From Jiangella muralis (GTDB taxonomy: Bacteria > Actinomycetota > Actinomycetes > Jiangellales > Jiangellaceae): a stretch of DNA of 64,000 nt. The DNA is taken from assembly GCF_001270745.1 (NCBI RefSeq), contig NZ_LFXL01000025.1, forward strand, positions 1-64,000. The letters run 5' to 3'. The notes below the pieces were generated by a model. It was not told where the DNA came from. It saw nothing but the letters and a program-made list of their open reading frames with translations, and made no database searches. The first letter of the stretch is position 1. Each line of letters starts with the position of its first letter. This document shows positions 52,909 through 60,034 of the stretch, one piece after another. A program made the position numbers and the translations under genes.

Positions 52909-54998
52909 CTTCCCCCGCGACGGCGACAGCCGGAGCCGAGGCACGTCCTCGGTTCCGGCCGGACGTCGAGGGCCTGCGCGCCGTCGCGGTGCTGCTCGTG
53001 CTCGCCTACCACGCGGGCCTGCCGCTGGTCAGCGGCGGGTTCGTCGGCGTGGACGTGTTCTTCGTCATCTCCGGGTTCCTCATCACCGGGCTGATCCTGC
53101 GCGAGGTCGAATCGACCGGGCGGCTGCGGCTGGGCCGCTTCTACGCCCGCCGGATCCGCCGGCTGCTCCCCGCGACGGCGGTCGTGCTGGCCGCGACGGC
53201 CGGGCTGACGATCCTGCTGCTGCCGCCGCTGCGCTGGCCGTCGGTGGCCGGCGACATCGCGGCGTCGGCGACGTACGTGGTGAACTGGGGCCTGGCCGCG
53301 AACTCGGTCGACTACCTGGCCGCGGGCGACGCGCCCAGCCCCGTGCAGCACTTCTGGTCGCTGGCCGTCGAGGAGCAGTTCTACGTCGTCTGGCCACTGC
53401 TGATCATCGCGCTGGTGTGGTGGCGGCGGCGCCGCCGCGGCGGATCGGTGCGGCGGACGCTGCTGGCCGGGCTCGCGGTGGTCGCGGTCCCGTCGTTCGC
53501 GTGGTCGGTGCACCTGACGGCGGCGGCGCCCGGCGCGGCGTACTTCGTGTCGACGACGCGGGCGTGGGAGCTGGCGGCAGGTGCGGCGGTGGCGATCGGC
53601 GCGCGGCGGCTGGAGCGGCTGCCGGCGTGGGCGTCCGGCGCGCTGGCCGGCGGCGGGCTCGCGGCCGTCGGCTGGGCGGCGCTGAGCTACGACGCGGCGA
53701 CGGCGTTCCCGGGCGTGGCGGCGCTGGTGCCGGTGCTCGGGACGGCAGCGGTGATCGCGGCGGGCGTGGCGAGCGTGCGTACGGTGCCGGGGCGTGTTCT
53801 CGGGAGCGCACCGATGCGGTGGGTGGGCGGGCTGTCGTACTCGCTGTACCTGTGGCACTGGCCGCTGCTGCTGACCGCCGGCGCGGTGTGGGGCGCGCTG
53901 TCGCCGCAGCAGGGCACGCTGGTGGTGCTGGCCGCGTTCGTGCCGGCCTGGCTCACGCACCGGCTGGTCGAGGCGCCGATCCATCACGCCCGTGTGCTCG
54001 CCGTCCGGCCGCGGCGGGCGTTCGCCGTCGGGGTGGCGGCGACGGCGACGGCGCTGCTGGCCGCGCTGGTCACCGTCAAGGCGGTCCCGGAGTACGCGAC
54101 CGCCGACGCCGCGCCCGGCGCCGCCGTCCTCGCACCCGACCCGGCCGGCGACCCCGACGGCGTCCCCGTCGACCAGGTGCCCGCGATGACGCCGGACCCG
54201 ATCGACGTCCCCGAGGACAACCCGGACATCTATCCCGATGGCTGCCAGCAGAACGCCGAGGACGCCGACCTCGCCAGTTGCGCGTATGGCGACCTCGACG
54301 CCGGCCGCGTCATCGCGCTGGCCGGCGACTCGCACGCGGCGCAATGGCAGCCCGCGCTGGACGTGCTGGGCGAGCGGTACGGCTGGCGGATCGAGACCTA
54401 CACGAAGTCGTCCTGCGGGTTCTTCTCCGTCGAGGTCACGACGGCGGCCGGCGCGCCGTACACGTCCTGCCGAGACTGGAACGAGGCGCTGCTGGACCGC
54501 CTGACCGGGCCGGACCGGCCGGACCTCGTGGTGACGTCGGGCAGCAACTCCTACCGGGTGTGGGAGGACGGCCGCGAGCTGGACGACGACGCCAGCGCCG
54601 ACCGGCTGGCCGACGGGCTGCGCGACAGCTGGCAGGCGGTGCGCGACGCCGGGGTGGAGCTGGTCGTGCTGGAGAACACGCCGTGGCTCGAGCAGGACCC
54701 GGCCGAATGCGTCAGCGCGAAGCCGGACCGCCTCACCGAGTGCGCCCAGCCGCGCGCCGACGCCGTCGAGAAGGCCGGCGACGAACAGCGGGTCGCCGCC
54801 GGTCAGCTGGGCAACGTCGACGTCGTCGACCTCAACCGGGCCATCTGCCCGACCGACGAGTGCCCCGCGGTCATCGGCAACGTGGTGGTCTGGCGCGACG
54901 ACCACCACCTCACCGCGACGTACGCGCGCAGCCTCACATCGCACCTGGACCCGCAGCTGCGCCCGTACCTCGCCCCGGTCCGCCGGTCAGCCGCCTAG
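52905..54998 (+). CDS. membrane acyltransferase with SGNH domain (OafA/YrhL type)
   Basis: A ~697-residue acyltransferase-3 protein. The start of the domain, FRPDVEGLRAVAVLLVLAYH, contains the catalytic His; GVDVFFVISGFLITGLIL and HFWSLAVEEQFYVVWPLL follow in a ~10-span membrane region. The C-terminal extracellular domain is SGNH-type (ALAGDSHAAQW, later WRDDHHLTATYA with the catalytic Asp/His). It should O-acetylate an envelope glycan. No ATG, GTG or TTG lies between the pfp region and the conserved N-terminus; the best start is CTG 52905, overlapping the pfp stop as CTGA. It ends 12 bases inside the convergent PBP gene. Confidence 0.85.
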   Translation: MTSPATATAGAEARPRFRPDVEGLRAVAVLLVLAYHAGLPLVSGGFVGVDVFFVISGFLITGLILREVESTGRLRLGRFYARRIRRLLPATAVVLAATAGLTILLLPPLRWPSVAGDIAASATYVVNWGLAANSVDYLAAGDAPSPVQHFWSLAVEEQFYVVWPLLIIALVWWRRRRRGGSVRRTLLAGLAVVAVPSFAWSVHLTAAAPGAAYFVSTTRAWELAAGAAVAIGARRLERLPAWASGALAGGGLAAVGWAALSYDAATAFPGVAALVPVLGTAAVIAAGVASVRTVPGRVLGSAPMRWVGGLSYSLYLWHWPLLLTAGAVWGALSPQQGTLVVLAAFVPAWLTHRLVEAPIHHARVLAVRPRRAFAVGVAATATALLAALVTVKAVPEYATADAAPGAAVLAPDPAGDPDGVPVDQVPAMTPDPIDVPEDNPDIYPDGCQQNAEDADLASCAYGDLDAGRVIALAGDSHAAQWQPALDVLGERYGWRIETYTKSSCGFFSVEVTTAAGAPYTSCRDWNEALLDRLTGPDRPDLVVTSGSNSYRVWEDGRELDDDASADRLADGLRDSWQAVRDAGVELVVLENTPWLEQDPAECVSAKPDRLTECAQPRADAVEKAGDEQRVAAGQLGNVDVVDLNRAICPTDECPAVIGNVVVWRDDHHLTATYARSLTSHLDPQLRPYLAPVRRSAA

Positions 54999-57020
54999 GA
55001 ATGCCTCCAGCAGCGGGCCGGCGGTGCGCGAGCCGGACTCGCCGTCCTCGACGAACGCCGCGACGGCGAGGTCGCCCTGGGTGGCGATCATCCAGGCATG
55101 CAGGCGGATCTCACCGTCGGCGTCGTACTCCGCGGTGCCGGTCTTCGCGCCGACGGGGTCGCCGGGGACGTCGCCGAGGAAGGCGCCGCTGCCGTCCTCG
55201 ACCACGGCGCGCATGAGGTCCTGCAGGACGGCCGCCTCGTCGGCAGTCAGCGTGCTCTCGGGCGCCGCGGCGGCCGGGTCGACCAGCGTCGGCGCCACGG
55301 TGTGCCCGGCGGCGACCGAGGCGGCCACCGTCGCCATGGCCAGCGGCGACGCCAGCACCTCGCCCTGGCCGATCATCGACGCGGCGTGCGCGGTGCCGTC
55401 GGCCTCGGCCGGGACGGCGCCGAGGAAGGCCGGCGCGCCGGCCTGGTACTCGGCGCCGAGCCCCAGCGACGCCGCGGCCTGCGCCAGCGCGGCCTGGTCG
55501 GCGACGCCGTTCTGGCTGATGAAGGCCGTGTTGCAGGAGTTCGCGACGGCCTGGCGCAGGGTGATGTCGCCGATGGCGCCGGACGGGTAGTCGTCGTAGT
55601 TCTCGAACGCGCGGCCGTCGACGGTGACCGTCGGGGTGCACGGCACGGTCGACTCGGCGGTCAGCCCGGCGCGCAGCAGCGCCAGCGACGTCACCACCTT
55701 GAAGGTCGAGCCGGGCGCGTACTGCCCGACCGTCGCCGTCGAGTAGCCCTCGCCGCCCGGCCCGCTGGCGGCGGCCACGACGGCGCCGGTGGACGGCTGG
55801 ATCGCGACGATGGCGCTGGCCGGGCCGACGTCGGCGAGGATGCTCTCGGCGCGGGTCTGCAGGTCGATGTCGAGCGTCGTCGCCAGCGGGGTGCCGGCCA
55901 CCGGCTCGCGCTCGAACAGCACCTCCGGCTCGGCCGGCGCGGGCTCCTCGGCCTCGGCCGACGGGGACGCGCTGGGGTCGGTCGTGGCATCGGCGGACGG
56001 CTCCGGCGGCACCAGCTCGACGACGATCCCGGGCGTGCCGCCGAGCTGCGCGTCGTACTGCTCCTGGAGCCCGGACAGCCCCACGATGTCGCCGGCCTCG
56101 ATGCGGTCGGAGGCCTCGACCTGCTCGGCCGTCGCCTCACCGACGGTGCCGAGGATCGGCCGGGCGAAGTCGCGGGTCGGGGCCAGCGCACGGGTGTCCT
56201 CGATGGCGGCGGCGCCCTCGATGGCCGCGATCTGGTCCAGCAGCGGTGCGGCGTCGCCCTCGCGCAGCGTGATGGCCTCGACGAACGCACGCTCCCCCGC
56301 GTTCTGCACACGCTCGGTGAAGCCGGCCGGGTCGACGCCCGCCAACTCGGCCAGCGACGCCGCGGAAGCGGGCGCCAGCGCGGCGTCGACCTGGGTCTTG
56401 TCGATGCCGACCCGGTAGACCGGGCGCTCAGTGACGACGACCTCGCCGCCCGCGCCCAGGATGTCCGCGCGCTGGGCCTGGCTCCGGGACAGGTCGAGGG
56501 TGGCGCCCTCGGTGAGCTGCGGGTGCAGGATGGCCGGCGACCAGTCGACGGTCCAGCCTGCCTCGGTGTCCTCGGCGACGCGCAGGGTCGCGGTGGTCTG
56601 ATACGTCCAGTCGAACTGATCCGGCGAGCCGTCGGCGGGCGTCTCGGCCGGGGTGGTGGCCGCTTCCGTGGGAGGCGCGGACCCCGTCGGCGCCTTGCCT
56701 GGCGCGCTGAGCCGGTCGAAGTCCCAGGCGATGTCGATCGTCACCTCACGGGTGTTCTCGTCGACCTCGGTGATCTCGTCGAACCCGATCCGGTACATCA
56801 GGTCGCCCATGCCCGCTTTGATCGCCTCGACGGCGGCCGCAGCGGCCTCGGGGGTGGTGTTGCCGAGCGGGACATCGGTGAAGTCACCGTTGACGAGCGC
56901 GCCGGCCAACGCCTCGGCGACCGGTGTGGCGTCGGGCGGGTCGTCGCCGCTGCACCCCGCCGCCGTCGCCACCAACACGCCCCCGGCCACCAGCGCGAAC
57001 GCCCTGTTCGTCCCGATCAT
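54987..57020 (-). CDS. lipoprotein penicillin-binding transpeptidase (class B PBP, MecA_N-like)
   Basis: A 677-residue class B PBP anchored as a lipoprotein (lipobox ATAAGC, Cys ~23). Residues ~30-170 look like the NTF2-like MecA N-terminal domain (ALAGALVNGDFTDVPLG, MYRIGFDEITEVDE). A PBP dimerisation domain follows, then the transpeptidase: YAPGSTFKVVTSL (nucleophile Ser in STFK), AVANSCNTAF (SxN) and GAKTGTAEYD (KTG). It cross-links peptidoglycan outside the cell. The MecA-type layout allows low beta-lactam affinity, which is inference. ATG 57020 with GGGAG. It lies 207 bases downstream of the beta-lactamase gene on the same strand. Confidence 0.92.
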   Translation of the reverse strand: MIGTNRAFALVAGGVLVATAAGCSGDDPPDATPVAEALAGALVNGDFTDVPLGNTTPEAAAAAVEAIKAGMGDLMYRIGFDEITEVDENTREVTIDIAWDFDRLSAPGKAPTGSAPPTEAATTPAETPADGSPDQFDWTYQTTATLRVAEDTEAGWTVDWSPAILHPQLTEGATLDLSRSQAQRADILGAGGEVVVTERPVYRVGIDKTQVDAALAPASAASLAELAGVDPAGFTERVQNAGERAFVEAITLREGDAAPLLDQIAAIEGAAAIEDTRALAPTRDFARPILGTVGEATAEQVEASDRIEAGDIVGLSGLQEQYDAQLGGTPGIVVELVPPEPSADATTDPSASPSAEAEEPAPAEPEVLFEREPVAGTPLATTLDIDLQTRAESILADVGPASAIVAIQPSTGAVVAAASGPGGEGYSTATVGQYAPGSTFKVVTSLALLRAGLTAESTVPCTPTVTVDGRAFENYDDYPSGAIGDITLRQAVANSCNTAFISQNGVADQAALAQAAASLGLGAEYQAGAPAFLGAVPAEADGTAHAASMIGQGEVLASPLAMATVAASVAAGHTVAPTLVDPAAAAPESTLTADEAAVLQDLMRAVVEDGSGAFLGDVPGDPVGAKTGTAEYDADGEIRLHAWMIATQGDLAVAAFVEDGESGSRTAGPLLEAFLGG

Positions 57021-57132
57021 CGCTCCCCGTTCCTGCCCCGTCGTCCGACACACCCGAGGGTGTGTCTCCCGGGCGACACACCATAGCGCCAATGCACGTT
57101 CGCCCCGCGCTCACCGAAGGCCGTTCCCGCCG

Positions 57133-57205
57133 CTGGAGGTCTGCCGTCACATCCGACTGCAGACCCCCATCGCGATGGAGGTCTGCAGTCACATCCGACG
57201 GCAGA
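57133..57205. repeat. 42-bp tandem repeat with internal palindrome
   Basis: GGAGGTCTGC-(C/A)-GTCACATCCGAC is repeated at 57135 and 57177 with a 42-base period. The units meet at CCATCGCGATGG (57168-57179), which is flanked by CTGCAGACC and GGTCTGCAG to make a longer inverted repeat (57157-57187). It lies between the beta-lactamase stop (57228) and the PBP start (57020), so it may be a terminator, an operator or a dispersed repeat. Confidence 0.7.
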
Positions 57206-57227
57206 GCTCCAGCGTGCCGAACGACCA

Positions 57228-58115
57228 TCAGCCGAGCCGCCGCACCACCAGCCGGGCCACGTCGGCCAGGGCGGCGTCGACGCGCGGGGCGTCACGTTCC
57301 GCGCGGCGGCTCATCGCAACCATGACGATCGGCTGGCCGGCCGGGTTCCACGCCACCCCGGCGTCGTTGTTGCTGCCGTAGTCGCCGGCGCCGGTCTTGT
57401 CGGCCAGCCGCCAGCCGTCCGGCAGCACGTCGCGGAAGCGCGGACCGGACGTCGTGTTCGCCAGCATCCAGTCGCGCAGCCGCCGCCGGTCGCCGGATCG
57501 CAGCAGGTCGCCGACGAGCAGGCCGGCGAACGTGCGGGCCAGTGCCGCCGGCGTCGAAGTGTCGCGGACATCGCCCGGCTCGGCCGAGTTCAGCTCGATC
57601 TCCCAGCGGTCCAGCCGGGTCGCGTCGTCGCCGATCGACCGGGCGAACGCGGTCAGCCCGCGCGGCCCGCCGAGCTCGCGCAGCAGCAGGTTCCCGGCGG
57701 CGTTGTCGCTGTAGCGGATCGCGGCGTCACACAGCTCCGCGACGGTCATGCCGGTGTCGACGTGCTCGGCCGTGATCAGCGAGTTCGGCACGATGTCGGC
57801 CGGCGGGTACCAGACGCGGTGCTCCAGCCGGGACACGTCGAGGTCGCGCAGGACGGCGGCCGCGGCGATCGACTTGAACACCGACAGGATCGGGAACCGG
57901 TCGCCGGGCCGGTGCGCGAGCCGGGCGCCGGTCGCGAGGTTCGTGGCGCTGACGCCGAGCGTGACGTCGTAGGCGCGCTCCAGCTCGCGGACCGCCGGGT
58001 CCAGACCGGAGCCGGACGCACCGGCGCTGCCGGTGCCGAGCAGGCCGGCCGACGCGGCCAGCGGGACGGCCAGGCCGGCCCGCAGAACGGTGCGGCGGCT
58101 GAGCGGACGGGTCAT
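57228..58115 (-). CDS. class A beta-lactamase, Tat-exported
   Basis: A 295-residue serine beta-lactamase. The N-terminus MTRPLSRRTVLRAGLAVPLA is a twin-arginine signal. The class A motifs are complete: SVFK (active Ser 70-type), YSDNAAGN (SDN), EIELN (Glu166-type with Asn170) and DKTGAGDYGSNND (KTG). It hydrolyses beta-lactams outside the membrane. GAGGAGG precedes ATG 58115. It is divergent from a LysR regulator with a T-N11-A site between them, the arrangement of inducible AmpR-type or BlaA-type systems. Substrate range cannot be read from sequence. Confidence 0.93.
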   Translation of the reverse strand: MTRPLSRRTVLRAGLAVPLAASAGLLGTGSAGASGSGLDPAVRELERAYDVTLGVSATNLATGARLAHRPGDRFPILSVFKSIAAAAVLRDLDVSRLEHRVWYPPADIVPNSLITAEHVDTGMTVAELCDAAIRYSDNAAGNLLLRELGGPRGLTAFARSIGDDATRLDRWEIELNSAEPGDVRDTSTPAALARTFAGLLVGDLLRSGDRRRLRDWMLANTTSGPRFRDVLPDGWRLADKTGAGDYGSNNDAGVAWNPAGQPIVMVAMSRRAERDAPRVDAALADVARLVVRRLG

Positions 58116-58198
58116 CGGTTCCTCCTCGGGCGGTACGGCCAACGCCGCCACCGTCGCAAGGCGGCCGCGGCGATGTCCAAGACGCAACCGCCACCGAT

Positions 58199-58217
58199 CC
58201 ATGCCGAATGGGTATGG
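58199..58217. promoter_or_regulatory. LysR-type T-N11-A binding site between bla and its regulator
   Basis: CCAT (58199-58202), 11 bases, then ATGG (58214-58217) is a symmetric T-N11-A element in the 111-base bla/lysR divergent gap, 10 bases before the LysR start. LysR proteins bind such sites, so it could mediate both autoregulation and bla induction. Confidence 0.55.
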
Positions 58218-58226
58218 TGGCTGCCC

Positions 58227-59117
58227 GTGGACCTGTTGCGGCACCTCGAGGCGTTCGTCGCAGTGGCCGAGGCGCGCAGCTTCACCCGCGGCGCCGACGT
58301 CTGCGGCGCCCCGCAGCCGGTCGTCAGCCGGCGAGTCGCCGCGCTGGAACGCGATCTCGGCACGACCCTGCTGCACCGCACGTCCCGGCAGGTCGAGCTG
58401 ACCGACGCCGGCCGCACCCTGCTCCCCCACGCGGCCGACCTCATCGCCCGGGCCGGGCACTTCCGCGAGCTGGCCGCCACGGCCCGCGCCGCGGGACTGA
58501 GCGCGGGCATCCCGGCCGGGCCGGACCCGCGAGCGCTGGTGGCCGCCCGCCGCCTGGCCGCCGCGGCCGGCGTCACGCTGACCTTCACCGAGCAGCTGGC
58601 CGCCGAGCGGGCCGCGCTCGTCCGCCGCGGCCGGCTCGACGTCGCGCTGCTGCCGTGCCCTCCTGACGAGGAGGAGACCGGCGCCGACCTCGGCGCCGCC
58701 ACCGCGACCGACGACCTGCGCGGGCGGCGGCTGCACCTGGACCAGCTGCGCCGCTCCGGCGGCGACGACGGGCGGCCGCGGGCGCTGCACCTGTCCGCCG
58801 AGGACGACGTGCCGTGGGTGCGCGACCCGGTGCGCCGCGCCGCCCGGCTGGCCGGGTTGCTGGACGGCCAGCTGCGCGTCGGCACGTCCGGCACCGAGGC
58901 GCTGACCTGCGCGCTCGAGTACGGCGACGCGATCCTGTGCACGCCCGCCTGGGCCGCGGCGCACCGGTTGCGCTGGCGCCCGCTCGGCGACGTCGCGGTG
59001 CGCCGCACGTACGCCGTCGCCGGCCGGGCGCAGGTGCCCCGCGAGCTGGTCGGCGCCGTCCTGCCGGCGCTGGCCCGGGCGGCCGGGCTGGTCGCCGACC
59101 CGGAGGAGCCGCGATGA
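58227..59117 (+). CDS. LysR-family regulator of the beta-lactamase (BlaA/AmpR-like)
   Basis: A 296-residue LysR protein. The HTH is VDLLRHLEAFVAVAEARSFT, then GAPQPVVSRRVAALERDLGT and LLHRTSRQVELTDAGRTLL. The effector domain (~95-290) is shorter in its hinge than typical and contains LPCPPDEEETG. GTG 58227 starts the conserved HTH; longer in-frame ORF upstream is not coding. It is divergent from bla and overlaps the beta-lactamase-like gene downstream (ATGA). By analogy with S. cacaoi BlaA it should activate bla when beta-lactam damage is sensed. Confidence 0.88.
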   Translation: MDLLRHLEAFVAVAEARSFTRGADVCGAPQPVVSRRVAALERDLGTTLLHRTSRQVELTDAGRTLLPHAADLIARAGHFRELAATARAAGLSAGIPAGPDPRALVAARRLAAAAGVTLTFTEQLAAERAALVRRGRLDVALLPCPPDEEETGADLGAATATDDLRGRRLHLDQLRRSGGDDGRPRALHLSAEDDVPWVRDPVRRAARLAGLLDGQLRVGTSGTEALTCALEYGDAILCTPAWAAAHRLRWRPLGDVAVRRTYAVAGRAQVPRELVGAVLPALARAAGLVADPEEPR

Positions 59118-60034
59118 CGACATCCGACGCGTTCGGGTTCTCCGGCGAGGCGGTGCGCACGGCGCACGACATCCGCGCCGACTGGGCCGCCACCGGACTG
59201 CGCGGCGCCCTCTACGCCCGCAACGTCGACACCGGCGAGGACCTCGGGTTCGACGTGCACGCGCCGTACGCGCTGGCGTCGGTGAGCAAGCTGCCGCTGG
59301 CGCTGGTGGTGCTCGACCTCATCGCCGCCGGCGAGCTGGACCCCGCGCACCCCGTCGACCTCGTCCCCGGCGCCATGACGCCCGGCCCGACCGGCGCGGC
59401 GCTGTTCCGGCACCCGAGCCGCGTCGCGTTGGAGGACCTGCTGCTGCTCATGCTCTCGGTGAGCGACAACGCCGCCGCCGACGCCGTCTTCGCGCTGGTG
59501 CCGCCGGAGCGGGTCACGGCGACGCTGCAGGACTGGGGGTGCGACGGCATCGTCGTGCGGCACCCGATGCGGCGGCTGTACGAGGCCGCGGCGGCGGTCG
59601 CACCGGACGACCCCATGCTGGCGCTGGAGCTGGCGGTGCGCGCGACCACCGACGGCGGCGGGCACGTGTTGCCGACGCTGGACGTCGCGGCGGCGACCAG
59701 CGGGACGGCGGCCGGGCTGGTGGCGCTGGTCGAGCGGATCTGGACCGACGACGTCAGCGTCCCGGCGGCGACGGCGCGGCTGCGCGAGCTGCTGGGCCAC
59801 CAGGTGCGCCAGCGGATCGGCGCCGAGCTGGCCGCGGACGCCGTCACGGTCAGCAGCAAGACCGGCACGTTCCTCAACCTGCGGCACGAGGCCGGCATGG
59901 TCACCACGTCGACCGGCGACCGCGTCGCCGTCGCCGCCCTCACCGCGTCGACCGTCGCCGCCCGGTCACAGCCCGAGGCCGACCGCGCGATCGGCCGGGC
60001 CGCCCGCGCCGCCGTCGACGTGCTGAGGGTCTAG
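59114..60034 (+). CDS. cytoplasmic beta-lactamase-like protein (BlaB-like)
   Basis: A 306-residue serine hydrolase of the beta-lactamase/PBP fold. Active-site elements are kept: ALASVSKLPLAL (SVSK), LSVSDNAAADAVF (SDN) and VSSKTGTFLNL (KTG). No Glu166-type ELxN is obvious, and there is no signal peptide, so it stays in the cytoplasm. ATG 59114 overlaps the LysR stop by 4 bases, so it is made together with the regulator. In S. cacaoi, BlaB is a protein of this kind needed with BlaA to induce the beta-lactamase, although it does not act as a beta-lactamase. The same sensor role is inferred here. Confidence 0.82.
   Translation: MTTSDAFGFSGEAVRTAHDIRADWAATGLRGALYARNVDTGEDLGFDVHAPYALASVSKLPLALVVLDLIAAGELDPAHPVDLVPGAMTPGPTGAALFRHPSRVALEDLLLLMLSVSDNAAADAVFALVPPERVTATLQDWGCDGIVVRHPMRRLYEAAAAVAPDDPMLALELAVRATTDGGGHVLPTLDVAAATSGTAAGLVALVERIWTDDVSVPAATARLRELLGHQVRQRIGAELAADAVTVSSKTGTFLNLRHEAGMVTTSTGDRVAVAALTASTVAARSQPEADRAIGRAARAAVDVLRV

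Follow-up and report, generated by a model that had tools for sequence, protein, structure and literature searches.

Pairs of genes for a LysR-type regulator and a BlaB-like protein adjoin either a class A beta-lactamase gene (bla) or the gene of a class B penicillin-binding protein (PBP) in several actinobacterial lineages. The reading that we favour, with fair but limited confidence, is that the pair forms a penicillin or wall-stress switch acting on the gene divergent from it, bla or PBP depending on the lineage, that the pair differs between species at a single PBP retained in Jiangellaceae, and that its target in the DNA studied here is bla. This DNA is a window of 64,000 nucleotides from Jiangella muralis, a soil actinobacterium. 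Its cluster is of a known kind; what is new is the association of LysR-BlaB pairs with PBPs across lineages and the occurrence of different regulator pairs beside one PBP. The first-pass annotation had placed four genes side by side in the window, and a check of the open reading frames confirmed that all four are real and correctly placed, with the expected motifs:

54987-57020, minus strand: class B PBP of the lipoprotein type, with PBP_dimer and transpeptidase domains and a sub-threshold MecA_N match.
57228-58115, minus strand: bla, class A beta-lactamase with a Tat-type signal (open reading frame, motifs and profile match).
58227-59117, plus strand: lysR, BlaA-like LysR-type regulator with an HTH domain; the GTG start ('VDLLRHL') is the most likely one.
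59114-60034, plus strand: blaB-like gene for a probably cytoplasmic SxxK/SDN/KTG protein from which the class A general-base Glu is absent.

The lysR gene is divergent from bla and is followed on its own strand by blaB, which it overlaps by 4 bp, while the PBP gene lies downstream of bla and on the same strand as bla. The divergent region between the bla start (58115) and the lysR GTG (58227) measures 111 bp; alternative upstream starts of lysR are possible at 58173 and 58212. Since the four-gene arrangement recurs across the order, it is more than a chance neighbourhood; an estimate of chance adjacency was discarded as it was built on an assumed PBP density. In a scan of named genomes, the record nearest to the window BlaB came from J. 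endophytica (94% identical). Six PF00905 matches occur in the window genome. At C16 it carries a second bla-LysR-blaB cluster, which shares 41-46% identity with that of the window and had no PBP in the 20 kb read there.

The description of Bla as a Tat-exported class A beta-lactamase was borne out by a twin-arginine stretch (RRTVLRAGL at residue 7, motif only), a complete catalytic set (SVFK78, SDN136, ELN174, KTG240) and a score of 296 bits against the NCBIfam class A model (cut-off 200). In LysR, the HTH is the sole domain recognised by Pfam (75.9 bits). The BlaB-like protein carries SVSK56, SDN117 and KTG249. Among 25 aligned BlaB sequences S56, K59, S117, D118, T250 and G251 are invariant, as are R257 and E259 past the KTG motif, and K249 is nearly so. 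No invariant Glu was found in these 25 sequences between SDN and KTG, the omega-loop region, so the earlier statement that no ELxN is visible holds. The proposal of a cytoplasmic protein agrees with the lack of a signal peptide visible by eye; BlaB is probably a cytoplasmic, PBP-like protein which could probably be acylated, the deacylating Glu being absent. Its predicted structure (pLDDT 91.4) is closest, among solved structures, to 2wuq, the BlaB of Streptomyces cacaoi (TM 0.84/0.91). It seems very improbable that BlaB is a beta-lactamase or a drug trap instead of a regulatory partner: the protein does match the Pfam Beta-lactamase2 family (137 bits), but it reaches only 65.5 bits against the NCBIfam class A cut-off of 200, lacks both the invariant Glu and a recognisable signal peptide, and resembles most a regulator.

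With full bla motifs, a divergent lysR followed by blaB, and a BlaB devoid of the general-base Glu, the window genes belong to the BlaL/BlaA/BlaB family, whose gene order in S. cacaoi is like that of the window. A 2003 paper reportedly calls BlaB a penicillin-binding protein in its title. In S. cacaoi a class A beta-lactamase is controlled by a LysR-type activator and BlaB, according to the accessible part of PMC3610667. The window resembles this system in combining a class A bla with a LysR-type regulator and BlaB, and in the fold and motifs of BlaB; it differs by SDN in BlaB where 2wuq has SDG, and by the PBP gene after bla. Moreover, 2wuq scores 406 bits to L102, a BlaB of the second-cluster type, versus 214 bits to the window BlaB, so that the match proposed by the first-pass annotation stands at the level of the family, the second-cluster type being the nearer relative.

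The PBP (N-terminus ...AAGC, Cys23) carries STFK438, SCN495 and KTG626, and matches two Pfam families, Transpeptidase (120 bits) and PBP_dimer (68 bits). Its earlier designation as a MecA-type lipoprotein PBP survives in part: the lipoprotein-type N-terminus, transpeptidase and PBP_dimer domains are present, but MecA_N remains sub-threshold (20.7 bits, Pfam cut-off 22), and the NCBIfam MecA/B/C/D models give 19.5-44.6 bits, far under their cut-offs of 750-1500. MecA_N was just above the cut-off in two orthologues from the genera Phytoactinopolyspora/g6. These results bear on the idea that, in the window, bla and the PBP are induced together as a single resistance unit, combining drug destruction with target bypass by a low-affinity PBP, which we regard as rather doubtful. 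A profile of 13 orthologues, which favours it, retrieved PBP3 (7bn9), PBP4 and low-affinity PBP5 as best solved relatives, PBP2a coming further down; the window sequence alone, as well as the MecA scores, point the other way, a PBP2/FtsI-type protein and PbpA preceding PBP5, and such rankings cannot be read as beta-lactam affinity. The mycobacterial PBP-lipo (Rv2864c, MAB_3167c) is likewise an actinobacterial predicted lipoprotein class B PBP, a likeness by description, and the accessible part of the PBP-lipo text contains no mention of a LysR-BlaB pair (PMC9170245).

We then compared gene order within Jiangellales, sampled as 22 genomes of one family. A PBP orthologue was present in 20 of them, the two others being 75 and 81% complete. 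The LysR-BlaB pair adjoins the PBP in 18 of the 20 PBP-bearing genomes, and a further split case (G013) has a LysR gene cut by the contig end beside the PBP. The joint proposal of the first-pass annotation depended on linkage of the PBP to bla in related genomes. Of the 12 Jiangella genomes, 10 do have bla beside the PBP, as does one more whose contig breaks off within lysR, and the two Haloactinopolyspora genomes show this linkage too. Loci were classified by HMM labels, a partner being sought within 4.5 kb. Those with the PBP comprised 10 with bla, 2 with bla and a gene named UK1 (Haloactinopolyspora), 4 with UK1 and 2 with the PBP alone; the other loci were bla without PBP (11), BlaB without LysR (11) and one cut by a contig end. 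The second cluster of the window genome and 10 similar ones in the order showed no PBP in the fetched stretch. In the six Phytoactinopolyspora/g6 loci there is no bla, and a LysR-BlaB pair of a different clade is divergent from UK1-PBP (four loci) or from the PBP (two loci). UK1 encodes an exported-looking protein of about 285 residues directly before the PBP:

UK1: L085:7269-8090, L086:7233-8087, L087:6046-6897, L088:8049-8897, L090:6916-7806, L092:7356-8201.

UK1 is present in six of the 22 genomes, always next to the PBP, and none of the 12 Jiangella genomes gave a match; the two proteins tested had no Pfam match over the cut-off, and a protein database held 21 entries at E<=1e-10, the query proteins apparently included.

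Alternatively, the PBP might be a core enzyme that the order expresses constitutively, with the bla-LysR-BlaB module merely adjacent and exerting no control on it in Jiangella, a serious contender to which we give somewhat less than equal weight. One Jiangella genome (G008) keeps the PBP with bla, lysR and blaB absent at that locus, and a phosphofructokinase gene lies close to the PBP in many loci of the order; both observations favour this alternative. On the other hand, the same PBP is flanked by two distinct LysR-BlaB pairs, and in Haloactinopolyspora bla, UK1 and the PBP are closely spaced on one strand.

A search of the class detected BlaB (E<=1e-60) in 57 of 246 genomes, including 37 of the 224 outside the order. 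Of the BlaB loci outside the order, all 44 of which were fetched, 36 had a LysR gene upstream on the same strand and 8 did not. The divergent partner of these 36 pairs was bla in 22 (counting L284, where bla is in two pieces), a PBP in 8 and neither in 6. The neither class includes two loci with PBP remnants recognised by eye (L262 and L271) and one with bla downstream (L251). At another of its loci, a clade II LysR-BlaB pair has as divergent neighbour a Tat-signal protein resembling the metallo-beta-lactamase fold (L275:7852-9198, by eye). All 8 PBPs linked in this way passed the Pfam cut-offs for both Transpeptidase and MecA_N, and PBP_dimer was detected in 2 of them. The comparison of gene order across actinobacteria that had been suggested thus revealed LysR-BlaB pairs adjoining PBPs elsewhere, without bla, and this recurrence with other PBPs argues against mere adjacency. 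In support of a constitutive PBP, its relatives elsewhere mostly lack an adjacent BlaB: PBPs at E<=1e-80 were found in 47 genomes outside the order and lay beside a BlaB of the class search in only 2 (G186 and G242), although this threshold leaves out most of the 8 linked PBPs. In 16 further PBP loci, several of them short contigs, no BlaB was seen. Among the best 80 of 413 BlaB relatives in named genomes, a PBP was found in 4, all Jiangellaceae, and no PBP match was obtained at the 74 non-duplicate loci, all from outside the order, left from these best 80 of 413 after removal of 6 duplicates. Sixty-one genomes belong to a family that is probably Streptosporangiaceae, judging from its BlaB relatives in Microbispora, Planomonospora, Nonomuraea and others. 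With thresholds picked after earlier results were known, a PBP-type BlaB (at least 445 bits) was present in 11 of them and the PBP subgroup (at least 620 bits) in 10, the two adjoining in 8; BlaB lacked an adjoining PBP in G074, G219 and G270, and the PBP an adjoining BlaB in G256 and G288. A crude GC-frame gene caller was inconsistent and kept out of the counts, for which HMM hits were used.

The BlaB tree (97 rows from fetched loci, near-copies excluded) separated two clades. The first, of 61 rows, contains the window BlaB and comprises 53 rows with bla in the locus, 6 with bla and PBP and 2 with none. The second, of 36 rows, contains the BlaB of Phytoactinopolyspora/g6 and comprises 16 rows with PBP (L262 and L271, which have PBP remnants only, being counted), 15 with none and 5 with bla. 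Forcing the two PBP-linked groups of Jiangellaceae, which were chosen after earlier results were known, into one clade was rejected for BlaB (AU 1.2e-131) and, on a quick tree, for LysR (AU 2.6e-7). In the PBP tree, the sequences from the order form one group (SH-aLRT 89, 13 rows), and linked PBPs from outside the order occupy three further places. The orthologous PBP would thus have stayed in Jiangellaceae, accompanied by a PBP-type pair in Phytoactinopolyspora/g6 and by a bla-type pair with bla in Haloactinopolyspora and Jiangella.

Two conserved blocks were recognised between bla and lysR:

58174-58186, plus strand: TGTCCAAGACGCA element, predicted LysR site and part of the bla promoter.
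58197-58218, plus strand: conserved ATCCATGCCGAATGGGTATGGT block with a T-N11-A palindrome and a -10-like TATGGT, putatively serving lysR.

The TGTCCAA and T-N11-A blocks are conserved in all 11 aligned Jiangella loci; TGTCCAA is also found in both Haloactinopolyspora loci, and in 12/12 Jiangella/Haloactinopolyspora loci tested. In 160-bp stretches upstream of lysR, the exact heptamer was present in 58 of 135 LysR-BlaB loci, a count inflated by related species, when about 0.7 was expected. All 58 copies are located 50-61 bp ahead of the LysR match, and the reversed heptamer was not found in the same 135 stretches. The remaining 77 loci lack the exact heptamer, many carrying a one-mismatch version in the same position. 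Of 14 clade II loci with a PBP partner, 13 contain GTCCAA, 8 of them as part of the full heptamer; the element is lacking at L283. The (T)GTCCAA element, 50-61 bp before lysR, is therefore common to bla-type and PBP-type loci, and because partners of both kinds were found, LysR-BlaB probably serves either target. A 15-base pattern around TGTCCAAGACGCA had no other match in the genome at 0 or 1 mismatch. At up to two mismatches, the genome-wide operator pattern gave 18 matches (1 exact, 17 with two) versus 22 for the reversed control and was rejected, as was a match 2.5 kb from another beta-lactamase-like gene, which falls within a ClpC-like reading frame.

In the mechanism that we favour, LysR would act on the gene divergent from the LysR-BlaB pair, with BlaB as its sensor or signal-processing partner. 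The target would be a class A beta-lactamase for one clade of pairs (that of the window and, by score, the S. cacaoi type) and, in several lineages of the other clade, a MecA_N-type class B PBP. In the window, LysR-BlaB would most likely control bla directly; its relatives suggest that, in some of them, wall-building enzymes are under the direct control of a switch of this type. In staphylococci, the bla and mec systems (BlaR1-BlaI and MecR1-MecI) employ one kind of penicillin-sensing switch for a beta-lactamase or for a MecA_N-type PBP. LysR-BlaB appears to share this choice of target across lineages, by analogy only: the regulators are unrelated, BlaB resembles class A enzymes and is probably cytoplasmic, and the LysR-BlaB side has no membrane sensor-protease. 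If LysR-BlaB does control PBPs as well as beta-lactamases, it would be an actinobacterial counterpart of staphylococcal bla/mec logic, made of unrelated parts and with a PBP-like sensor, and lineages in which a PBP is the only divergent target would offer a concrete route to what BlaB senses. In Gram-negative AmpR systems a LysR regulator is also divergent from a beta-lactamase gene; no BlaB partner is known there, whereas the regulator of the window is encoded with a PBP-like protein. The literature searched contained nothing on LysR-BlaB with a PBP, which is no proof of novelty as the S. cacaoi BlaB paper lay outside its coverage; in the accessible part of one review, LysR, BlaB and Jiangella do not occur (PMC6273383).

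Three features were noted in the gap between bla and the PBP gene:

57080-57096, minus strand: promoter-like sequence TGCATTGGCGCTATGGT ahead of the PBP gene, a candidate promoter for it.
57119-57226, minus strand: long inverted repeat forming a very strong hairpin, in this strain.
57047-57081, minus strand: GTGTGTC/GACACAC inverted repeat, three half-sites in all, immediately ahead of the PBP gene.

Nine of 11 Jiangella loci have a gap of only 47-126 bp; that of the window measures 207 bp and that of L079 305 bp. The shortness of the gap in most loci is unfavourable to a constitutive PBP, while the common strand and conserved order of bla and the PBP favour their joint induction. A similar promoter-like sequence was recognised by eye in the gap of 10 of the 11 loci (the exact 13-mer TTGGCGCTAGGGT in 8, the window not among them), neither GTCCAA nor TTGGAC occurs in any of the 11 gaps, and the whole window gap folds at -128.7 kcal/mol (z -7.3). 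Taken together, the promoter-like element, the hairpin and the missing (T)GTCCAA argue against simple read-through in this strain; along with the G008 locus, they fit a constitutive PBP and weigh against a joint unit. The PBP may nevertheless rise with bla by read-through in some species, and in this strain probably has a promoter of its own as well. One relative (L076) has a stretch that, by eye, resembles the GTGTGTC/GACACAC repeat; the pattern GTGTGTC-N7-GACACAC has no match in the window, whose own repeat differs in spacing. In L079, the gap holds a set of similar GGAGGTCTGC repeats, built differently from the repeat at 57119-57226.

A broader reading, which we hold unlikely, is that LysR-BlaB serves actinobacteria in general as a switch for wall damage, in which BlaB would read peptidoglycan peptides recycled into the cytoplasm and not the drug. 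It would have been wired repeatedly to a beta-lactamase or to a MecA_N-type PBP, the pair being swapped at the Jiangellaceae PBP and the target kept. BlaB paralogues without LysR sit in operons of oligopeptide/dipeptide ABC transporters with peptidases (L010:800-13543, L113:1792-8797, L273:2557-12998 and others; L273 and the others by eye), which hints at a peptide ligand and fits this reading. The L010 operon additionally encodes an S9/class C-type fusion, an M20 peptidase and an MR/MLE enzyme, and L273 has one open frame with two BlaB domains. At L276, L280 and L285, the LysR gene is divergent from BlaB instead of preceding it, and a gene for a secreted-looking protein follows BlaB.
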